From Lichtheimia corymbifera B2541 (taxonomy: Eukaryota > Mucoromycota > Mucoromycetes > Mucorales > Lichtheimiaceae), in the NCBI GenBank assembly GCA_000697475.1, contig JNEU01001169.1:186001-250000 (forward strand): a stretch of 64,000 nt of DNA, read 5' to 3'. A model generated the notes under the pieces. That model worked only from the letters and a program-made list of their open reading frames with translations. It searched no databases and was not told the DNA's origin. The stretch's first letter is position 1; every line of letters starts with the position of its first letter. Below are positions 7,541 through 15,672 of the stretch, in pieces. The position numbers were made by a program, and so were the translations under genes.

Positions 7541-8041
7541 CAGCTAGAAGACATGACAGTAGTCATATACCCTAACTGATAAAAAGAGCTGCTGTTGTTG
7601 GTCAGAATGACGTCTTGTAGACAAATAAATGAGAGCATTCATGCGGAAGGAGAAAAAAGGGCACCCAAAAAAAATCGGAGCTGATGACAATGCTGCCATT
7701 GCATGATGATGATGACACGTATACATTCCATCTTATAATTATGATAAGCTTTAGTTTGTCATGTTGAGAATGATGCAAAAGGACAAGTGGTAGTAAAAAA
7801 AGTGGATTCGATTTCTGCCTCAATACATATATATACGTCATGATGACATGGAGCCAAGCAAAGCTATCATATGCACACGTGTGTAAGATACTTACCCTTG
7901 TCTTTCATTGCATACGAGCTAGCCTAGAGCAGGTTTGCTTCAAAATCACTATCCCATATAGGTGGGAATATGCATACGTTCATGACATGAAAATGACGAT
8001 TGATGAAAGTAGAAAGAAAACCACCCAACAACAATAACGAC
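7541..8041. other. Intergenic, no gene seen
   Basis: Short open frames here lack splice support, domain patterns or good context. The region contains the 3' flank of the ECL1-type gene and the upstream promoter of the C2-domain gene. Confidence 0.4.
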
Positions 8042-12542: not shown

Positions 12543-13254
12543 TTAAGCCTATGACAAGCACGTTAGTTGTACTGTAATTCCAACAAAGATTCACTAGTGA
12601 GAATTATACCTTCTTGGCAGCAGCAGGCTAGAATAGAGAGTATAATAAGTAAAAAGTGATCCATACTCTACAATCCCGTATTCATCATTATTACCTTGGA
12701 GGACTTCTTAGCATCCTTGGCAGCTTGACGGGCAGCAGCACGAGCTTCAGGCTTCTCGGTACGCTTGGCACGGATTTCTTCCCAGGAGGCACCAACAACA
12801 GCACGCTCGTGCTTGACAGTGCGGCGAGTACGCTTAGCACGGACCTCAACAGAGATACCCTTCTTGTTGACGCGACGATAAATTTGGGTCCAGCGGATCT
12901 TGCGAGGGCTCAAACGCTGCAAAAAGTACGACTCGGTCTTACCGTTGATGAAACGGAAGGTCTACAAAAAAGTTGGTTGTTGGTGCTATAGTCCAAATGT
13001 AGAGGTTGTAATAGAGTCAATGGTGTCAATGCTTACTCTACAATAAAGACGAAACGGGTTTAATACACTAGTCAATGCCCATGGATGGGGGGTTGTGGAT
13101 AAATGCGTACCTGCTGTCGCTGCGAACGAACACCTTACCCTTGGCAGGGTAGATCTTGTAACCGGAGAACGAGCAAATCTCGAGTCTGGAAGATGATGTT
13201 AGATGAGAATGATGATGATAGATGATGGATGGATGGATGGATATATTACTTCAT
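12543..13254 (-). CDS. RPL24: 60S ribosomal protein eL24, with a one-nucleotide exon
   Basis: The protein is unmistakable: [41 protein letters not shown] and [15 protein letters not shown]. It sits at the large-subunit interface. The exons are 13254-13250 (ATGAA), 13185-13111, 13037 (a single A), 12961-12695, 12627-12610 and 12548-12543, giving 123 residues. The single-base exon is needed because exon 2 ends AGCAG and the next coding block starts ACCTTC; one base is missing for Arg. The A at 13037 lies between a TTGTAG acceptor and a GTAAGC donor, splitting a 149-base gap into introns of 73 and 75 bases, both normal here. The C-terminus is shorter than in yeast (155 residues). The last exon is only Ala plus stop. 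Confidence 0.9.
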
Positions 13255-13998: not shown

Positions 13999-15672
13999 AT
14001 GTCGAGCATTGACGAGATTGGCTACCCACCTCAAAGGATATCCACACCAGATTCCACGCCCACTCGGTACGTACAAGTGAAAGGGCCAACCAAATCACCG
14101 CCGCCGTTATTGATGCCAAAACCTGTCCACGCCGTGGCTCCCACCCAGAAATTAGTTCAACAACAACAAAAACAAAAACAAACAAGCTCTACCACCACCT
14201 CTTCTACAACTGTCACTGCCACACGTACAACATCCATTCTTGTCAAGAAGAAACCATCATTAGCTAACATGAATAACCACCATCAACAACAGCAGCAACA
14301 AGATCATCATCAACATCAGCCACAACAACAGCAACAGCAGCAACAGCAGCCATCTTCTTCAATGCCACCTGTGATATCATCATCCTCAGCACCTACAACT
14401 TTGCAAGCACAAAAACCCATTACGGTATCAGAATCCCATTCATCTGCACCCACAACGTCTGTTGTCAACGCAGGTAAACAACCCGCTGGAGGAAATAAGG
14501 TTACTTTTGAAGCTGGTGTTGCCAATCCTCACCATCACCAGCATCATGATTCATCATCATCCGCTGCCCTCCCAAGCAACAGCAATGCTAACGCCACCAC
14601 TGCCAATATACTCAGCAACAAGTTTTCAGCCGAGTACCAAGCAATTATTCAGCAGAATGAAATGCTACGACACCAAGTGCAAATGCTTACCAGGGAAAAG
14701 ATGGAAATGGAACGTGAACGTCATGTGGTAGTGGATAGGTTAGAGCAACTTGAAAGGGAGATGCGGAAACATTGTCGTATTGCAGCTGCTCGTATGCGTA
14801 ATCAGCAACAGCAACCACAGCCTGACATGATGGATGATCCCATGGAAGAATCAACAGGTGGTGCTAGCACCCAGCAATCTGCCAACATTAATATGACCCA
14901 TTCTCGTTCTGATCCGACCACCTTACTTTCACCACGGCGCCGTCGTTCAACACCTTCCAATTCTCGTAATACAGCAGCAAGTCGTCAACGTCACCAACAT
15001 CATGCTAGAAGTAAAAGCGTCCCTCGAGATGAAGCTTATTGGCGAGTTGGACCAGGTGGTGGGATAAGAGGAAACAATCGAGCTCGCTATATGGATGATT
15101 ATTATGAAGATAGTGCTGCCAGTTATGATTATTATTCACAACAAGATGATGAGGATGAGAGTGAAATTGAAGGTTGGCCTGAAGATGAAGAGGACGATGA
15201 GGATGAGGAGGATGAGGAGGATTACCGTAGACCAAGACTTTTTCACCATCATCATCATCCACCAAGACGTCGTCGTTCATTGTCATCTGCTCGTGTACCA
15301 CCACCACCACCGCCAATGATCCCACGACCTAATGCTGCTACTGCCGCTGCTGCTGCTGCTGGTATACCACCCATGGTACCACCTCATCCAAGATATCCTC
15401 CCATGATGGGCCCACCACCTCCTCCTCCTCCAATGTCTATGGCTGGTTCATTAGGTCGTAATCCAAACCGAAGATCAGTAAGACAGCGAAGATCTGGGTC
15501 ACTTGGTTATTCATCAGCACCACGTTGGCGTGGCGGTAACACTTATGGAGCTCCACCACCTCCACCAGACGATGAATACATGTGGGATCAGTATGAAGAC
15601 GATTATAATGATTATCCACCTCCACCAAGATATAGCAGGCGATCAGCGGGTCGGTCGCGTTATTATGGATAA
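13999..15672 (+). CDS. Low-complexity coiled-coil protein (Gln/His/Pro-rich)
   Basis: A single-exon frame of 557 residues, unusual here because most neighbours are spliced. The order is a Ser/Pro N-terminus, Gln and His runs (about residues 55-210), a short coiled coil beginning EYQAIIQQNEMLRHQVQMLT (about residues 213-260), a basic Ser/Arg-rich section, a strongly acidic Asp/Glu block (near residue 395-410), and proline runs with PPPPPPM motifs. It has no enzyme motif. Polyproline stretches and a coiled coil suggest a scaffold, for example for profilin or SH3 partners, but that is inference. The ATG at 13999 follows a long pyrimidine tract; an in-frame upstream ATG inside that tract is less likely. 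Confidence 0.7.
   Translation: MSSIDEIGYPPQRISTPDSTPTRYVQVKGPTKSPPPLLMPKPVHAVAPTQKLVQQQQKQKQTSSTTTSSTTVTATRTTSILVKKKPSLANMNNHHQQQQQQDHHQHQPQQQQQQQQQPSSSMPPVISSSSAPTTLQAQKPITVSESHSSAPTTSVVNAGKQPAGGNKVTFEAGVANPHHHQHHDSSSSAALPSNSNANATTANILSNKFSAEYQAIIQQNEMLRHQVQMLTREKMEMERERHVVVDRLEQLEREMRKHCRIAAARMRNQQQQPQPDMMDDPMEESTGGASTQQSANINMTHSRSDPTTLLSPRRRRSTPSNSRNTAASRQRHQHHARSKSVPRDEAYWRVGPGGGIRGNNRARYMDDYYEDSAASYDYYSQQDDEDESEIEGWPEDEEDDEDEEDEEDYRRPRLFHHHHHPPRRRRSLSSARVPPPPPPMIPRPNAATAAAAAAGIPPMVPPHPRYPPMMGPPPPPPPMSMAGSLGRNPNRRSVRQRRSGSLGYSSAPRWRGGNTYGAPPPPPDDEYMWDQYEDDYNDYPPPPRYSRRSAGRSRYYG

Follow-up and report, generated by a model that had tools for sequence, protein, structure and literature searches.

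Base 13037 of the 64,000-nt stretch of Lichtheimia corymbifera DNA analyzed here (the window) most probably forms a constitutive coding exon one nucleotide long in the eL24 ribosomal protein gene, situated between two GT-AG introns; we assign this reading a probability of about 0.9. The gene lies on the minus strand of the window (contig C427; genome of 35.0 Mb in 432 contigs), and its predicted protein showed 99% identity to L. ramosa LRAMOSA08300 in a protein search. With the A at 13037 included, the protein matched profile PF01246 at 101.8 bits (cut-off 27) over residues 1–65 of 123. The gene is laid out as follows.

13250–13254, minus strand: coding part of exon 1, ATGAA; predicted start, with ATGAA|GTAATA located by script
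13186–13249, minus strand: intron between exons 1 and 2, 64 nt, predicted along with exon 1
13111–13185, minus strand: exon 2, 24 complete codons plus AG, ending in phase 2 (..AGC GAC AGC AG)
13038–13110, minus strand: intron 1, 73 nt, GTACGC..TTTATTGTAG, from script and splice scoring
13037–13037, minus strand: putative single-nucleotide exon, A (T on the plus strand), third position of the arginine codon AGA in SDS-R-TFRF
12962–13036, minus strand: intron 2, 75 nt, GTAAGC..TTTTTTGTAG, from script and splice scoring
12695–12961, minus strand: exon 3, starting in phase 0 (ACC TTC CGT)
12628–12694, minus strand: last intron, 67 nt
12604–12627, minus strand: last exon, encoding PAAAKKV plus stop

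The assignment of exon 1 was based on the joining of ATGAA to CAG|A CTC GAG, which would yield MKLEIC (cf. L. ramosa P0001). Exon 2 ends in phase 2 at 13111 and exon 3 starts in phase 0 at 12961, which leaves the coding sequence exactly one base short. The letters and coordinates of this deficit on the minus strand, with AGCAG before the gap and the next coding block starting ACCTTC, agreed with those given in the initial annotation. The 149-nt gap reads GTACGC..TTGTAG|A|GTAAGC..TTGTAG on the minus strand, with the A at 13037, and inclusion of this A restored SDSRTFRF, the same motif as in L. ramosa P0001. The joint was spanned without a gap in the three listed of 80 solved-structure matches. 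Enumeration of in-frame, stop-free internal exons flanked by introns of at least 40 nt returned three options for the window gap, and the A at 13037 ranked first with a summed splice score of 14.5, as compared with 9.9 and 8.2; the earlier proposal that a single A divides the gap into introns of 73 and 75 nt was thereby borne out as the best-scoring solution. The third option was another single base (8.2), giving SDSSTFRF and introns of 43 and 105 nt.

Other loci of the same genome exhibited the same arrangement. A DNA search recovered two more eL24 copies, L002 (contig C110) and L003 (contig C223), and the PF01246 profile detected at least four loci, comprising the eL24 genes on C427, C110, and C223 together with one on contig C167 that we take to be Rlp24-like. 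The one-base deficit was found in all three eL24 copies, within gaps of 149, 139, and 145 nt (window, L002, and L003, respectively), and all three gaps contained TAG-A-GTAAG, with introns of 73/75, 60/78, and 64/80 nt on its two sides. In L002 (score 15.3) and in L003 (13.3), the A was the sole in-frame internal exon option. Direct joining of 13111 to 12961 in the window copy, skipping the A, caused a frameshift with 16 foreign residues followed by a stop codon; skipping of the A led to a stop codon in L002 and L003 as well, and retention of either intron did so in all three genes. Among the three copies, 7 of the 24 complete codons of exon 2 varied, every change being synonymous, and the remaining exons were open. 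The deficit, the anatomy of the splice sites, and the presence of both in three gene copies are thus direct observations.

The longest string common to the interiors of the three gaps (outer six bases per end left out) was TAGAGTAAG, with a length of 9 nt. Shuffled triples shared strings of 4–8 nt, with 4 of 2000 reaching 8 nt and none reaching 9 nt, and the last introns of the three eL24 genes shared interior strings of at most 6 nt. Because four of the six pairwise intron alignments scored at least three standard deviations above their shuffles, the three copies are not independent of one another, and descent without selection is part of the picture.

Splice-site strength was evaluated with matrices built from 41 introns of Ras-family genes in the same genome. 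The set was drawn from 40 stretches with Ras-domain matches (out of 136 matches), where 41 of 65 adjacent match pairs tried were resolved by one canonical intron and the other 24 were not; five of the 41 introns scored poorly. Their lengths ranged from 56 to 260 nt (median, 65 nt), with 26 of the 41 at 60–80 nt, which confirmed 73 and 75 nt as normal intron lengths. The accompanying claim that a 149-nt intron would be exceptional did not hold: three of the sampled introns are longer (180, 228, and 260 nt) and one more measures 148 nt. The average intron length of 258 nt given for L. corymbifera in the part of the genome report available (PMC4133162) also counts against it. The two sites around the A had been described as perfect, which was apt for acceptor 1 (95th, 93rd, and 88th percentile of the Ras set in the window, L002, and L003) but not for donor 2 (15th, 29th, and 15th percentile, respectively), whose low score is mainly due to the A at position −1 on the exon side in place of the usual G. 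Donor 1 of the window lay at the 46th percentile of the 41 introns. Branch-point-like 5-mers were graded on a simple ad hoc scale, and scores of 5 or more were obtained for 28 of 36 Ras introns, for intron 1 of all three genes, and for intron 2 of L002. The last 55 nt of intron 2 in the window contained no good branch-point match (best, CCAAC; score 2), and the match in intron 2 of L003 was weak (score 3). The weak donor 2 and the weak branch points are real weak points of the one-base exon reading; the splice sites and sizes of both flanking introns are nevertheless usable and normal, with donor 2 on the weak side.

To what extent chance could produce such an arrangement was estimated from 5000 dinucleotide shuffles per gap, with both introns set to at least 45 nt and the splice scores summed. 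AG-N-GT without a score threshold appeared in 11%, 4%, and 17% of the shuffled gaps (window, L002, and L003, respectively), whereas AG-N-GT scoring at least 13.3 appeared in 0.08%, 0.02%, and 0.08% of them and in 3 of 3 real gaps. Bare AG-N-GT is not rare, and it is the quality of the splice sites and the recurrence in three copies that count. On both strands of the 64-kb window, 126, 18, and 4 occurrences of AG-N-GT reached scores of 5, 10, and 13.3, respectively, and position 13037 scored highest (14.5). The other three at or above 13.3 were located at 7571 (minus strand; 13.4), 32345 (plus strand; 13.7), and 37759 (minus strand; 13.5), and in all three a G stands between AG and GT. The 41 Ras introns contained eight AG-N-GT in 3532 bases, with a best score of 7.4. 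Across both strands of the 35-Mb genome, YTNTAGAGTAAG occurred 19 times, three of these in the eL24 genes, as compared with 61 matches to the pattern read backwards. A search of the other 16 sites, restricted to this strict core with A as the base, revealed no convincing second one-base exon; joining in an open frame was possible at 5 of them (L024, L026, L027, L028, and L030) and, under the thresholds applied, at none of the other 11.

Four other readings of the joint were weighed. The deficit could be removed by one non-canonical intron of 148 nt, bordered either by TA..AG (exon 2 ending AGCAGG) or by GT..TA (exon 3 starting GACC). A G is available at either side of the gap, and the resulting AGG codon also encodes arginine, so that frame and protein fit equally well. 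Such an intron would, however, have to occur simultaneously in three gene copies with TA-AG or GT-TA borders, which are not known from any standard intron class, and it gives no account of TAG-A-GTAAG as the longest string common to the gap interiors; we consider it quite unlikely. We regard as very unlikely a canonical intron extending from an inner donor at 13133 (AAG|GTGTTC) to 12962, which would produce eL24 without VFVRSDSR or else an alternative product. This donor lies 23 nt upstream within exon 2, is in frame, and gave sums of 13.8, 13.1, and 13.1 in the window, L002, and L003, as against 14.5, 15.3, and 13.3 for the one-base exon, although these sums concern different site pairs and are only roughly comparable. 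Several databank models, such as P0003 and P0036, also have a deletion at or near the same place. The intron would nevertheless be 162–172 nt long and would leave TAG-A-GTAAG idle; moreover, the skipped stretch varies in three of its seven complete codons among the copies, all synonymously, as expected of coding sequence, and VFVRSDSR is gap-free in the three listed of the 80 solved-structure matches.

A longer internal exon of 31 nt using the same donor corresponds to the second option in the window gap (in frame; score 9.9). The insert of the L. corymbifera protein model P0004 is letter for letter this 31-nt exon ending at the A|GTAAGC donor. This match, which involves the donor of the one-base exon, counts in favor of the latter as well. 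We assume that P0004 stems from the published annotation of this species, which was guided by RNA-seq according to the available part of that report (PMC4133162). The 31-nt exon would place ten extra residues, absent from the L. ramosa protein, within a conserved motif, and it is impossible in L002 and L003, where the A is the sole in-frame option found, which makes it highly improbable. The fourth reading is a sequencing or assembly error of one base in an exon, or a pseudogene. A lost base would equally yield a one-base deficit, but the likelihood of this reading is negligible given that three copies on different contigs show an identical deficit at the matching position, the open state of their other exons, and the apparent presence of the deficit in models of two other genera.

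The single-nucleotide exon would also account for irregularities in the eL24 protein models of other species. Two protein searches (best 120 matches each) yielded 158 distinct eL24 models, which were scored as broken when they contained an insert or a deletion, were in the wrong frame, or had an upstream part that differed or was missing, using a motif pattern and three checks by eye. At or up to the joint, 48 of the 67 Mucoromycotina models were broken, as compared with none of the 73 other named models (Fisher p = 3e-22, for models that are not independent owing to gene copies, strains, and shared pipelines). All 16 Mortierellomycotina models were clean, and among 18 models lacking an organism name, 17 were unbroken and one did not cover the joint. 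The broken models spanned 19 genera, as counted from the names, and included all six Umbelopsis models. The 19 clean Mucoromycotina models, several of which came from genera also having broken ones, may represent species without the one-base exon or annotation that used transcripts. For L. ramosa, the species of the P0001 protein that carries SDSRTFRF, the accessible text of the genome paper lists transcriptome data among the evidence used for annotation (PMC4161746).

Errors at the SDSRTFRF joint are frequent in databank eL24 proteins of Mucoromycotina, including Lichtheimia P0002, P0003, P0016, and P0026. In addition, both P0002 and P0003 begin with MNRLEIC; its counterpart in L003 would be ATGAATAGG before CTCGAG, probably a read-through of the final bases of an intron.

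Some of the broken models could be decoded with respect to the splice sites, these decodings resting on protein models and not on DNA. Rhizopus arrhizus P0128 (..IDSR|LSVSST..) and Mucor hiemalis P0161 (..VDSR|LSVSL..) resemble the A-skipping junction and thereby suggest a donor in phase 2 and an acceptor in phase 0, so that the same deficit seems to be present in both species. In Choanephora P0112 (..SAYR|TFRF) and R. delemar P0160 (..FYNR|TFKF), the extra stretch ends like YAG plus one base, provided that the arginine is encoded by AGR. Models reading SRV(S/R/C).. look as if donor 2 had been read through, but they could also come from an ordinary phase-0 intron whose donor was misplaced. Scans of the genome_contigs and viral_contigs collections for eL24 DNA of relatives gave no Mucoromycotina match. 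The viral_contigs scan yielded no match of any kind, and the lone match in genome_contigs, an archaeal locus with 37% identity (L031), was not used.

We propose that a phase-2 intron (73 nt) and a phase-0 intron (75 nt) are placed one nucleotide apart, with the retained A completing AGA. Exon definition could hardly recognize an exon of one base. Fungi whose introns are short rely on intron definition, and introns 1 and 2 would presumably be removed successively in this manner, since acceptor and donor factors could scarcely occupy one nucleotide simultaneously. Either order of removal should work, neither weakening the next step. Donor 2 reads AGA|GTAAG whether or not intron 1 has already been removed, because exon 2 ends in AG, as does intron 1; exon 3 begins with A, the same base as the one-base exon. 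That the A is actually spliced in, in which order, and as a constitutive exon is what we infer from the gene anatomy. The initial annotation also raised stepwise, recursive-like splicing. Recursive (ratcheting) splice sites consist of AG|GT, a zero-length exon without a retained base. The eL24 site resembles them in having an acceptor directly before a donor inside a longer gap and in being compatible with stepwise removal, but at 13037 one base stands between AG and GT, is retained, and is required by the frame, so that the suggestion is compatible with stepwise joining but does not hold for a classical recursive site.

The Rlp24-like gene (L004; G000:C167:118420–118681, minus strand) contains one 73-nt phase-0 intron (FVRNDAK|TFRF), whose position and phase equal those of eL24 intron 2. 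The presence of an intron at the matching place and phase suggests that intron 2 is the older one; intron 1 would have been inserted later, one nucleotide upstream, and early enough to be common to much of Mucoromycotina. An old phase-0 intron followed by a phase-2 insertion is plausible as the simplest history. The route proposed by the authors of the Fusarium CYP621A study, in which a lost base was rescued by a cryptic exon (PMC12940212, as far as its available text goes), also fits eL24. On balance, we lean towards a one-base exon that was already present in the ancestor of Mucoromycotina (Mucorales and Umbelopsidales), was kept in most of their eL24 genes, and arose by insertion upstream of the intron shared with Rlp24.

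Single-nucleotide exons are an established phenomenon, to which eL24 adds a further case with a likely broad distribution. In the accessible portion of the report on Arabidopsis APC11 (PMC4674806), an A standing alone between AG and GT is likewise needed for the frame, and the exon was tested with GFP fusion constructs in protoplasts. APC11 differs from eL24 in being a plant cell-cycle gene with a 422-nt gap and the A at position 333 (PMC4674806), whereas the fungal ribosomal protein gene has near-equal introns of ordinary size and occurs in three copies. The 1-nt microexons of plant APC11 and VPS55 share with eL24 the symptom of wrong protein models; the available portion of that study describes them as conserved in land plants, missing from reference annotations, and followed by a GTRAGT donor (PMC8831610). 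These microexons are backed by RNA-seq and RT-PCR (PMC8831610, same portion), and the eL24 exon is deduced from DNA and broken models.

A parallel among fungal nuclear genes is Fusarium CYP621A, in which, according to the text available for PMC12940212, a one-base exon also lies in a conserved motif, was likewise found by a phase mismatch, and sits in a short gap (139 nt in F. graminearum). This exon differs from that of eL24 in belonging to an ascomycete P450 gene described as rarely expressed and in being a G (AGGGT) that forms the middle base of a glycine codon; the eL24 exon belongs to a ribosomal protein gene of Mucoromycotina and is an A that forms the third base of an arginine codon. 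The CYP621A exon is backed by 18 SRA reads and is called the first in a fungal gene in the same available text (PMC12940212), whereas that of eL24 is predicted from sequence. In the open-licence literature, covered mostly as titles and openings of abstracts, we found no one-base exon described for a ribosomal protein gene, for eL24, or for Mucorales.

The one-base exon would reside in a presumably essential and strongly expressed ribosomal protein gene, where splicing must be efficient, so that there would be little ground for setting it aside as splicing noise. It would provide a natural test of how the spliceosome copes with an acceptor that is followed after one base by a donor, and would account for a group of broken databank proteins, namely 48 of 67 Mucoromycotina eL24 models among the matches listed. 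If the exon is ancestral to Mucoromycotina, few single-nucleotide exons outside plants would be older or more widespread, and it would be the cause of wrong eL24 databank proteins across this group. These features also suggest a simple screen for further cases, combining a one-base phase mismatch with broken models confined to one clade.

Two further features of the locus were observed. The last eL24 intron (12694–12628, minus strand) also contains TTGTAG-A-GTATGG, and the last intron of L002 contains TTATAG-G-GTATGG at the matching place, which was not seen in L003. This AG-N-GT is probably due to chance, as it lies approximately 27 nt from the donor, is absent from L003, and supplies no base required by the frame. 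A run of CAA/CAG repeats at 14281–14400 (plus strand), located 5′ of the eL24 gene, resembles a glutamine-rich coding stretch.
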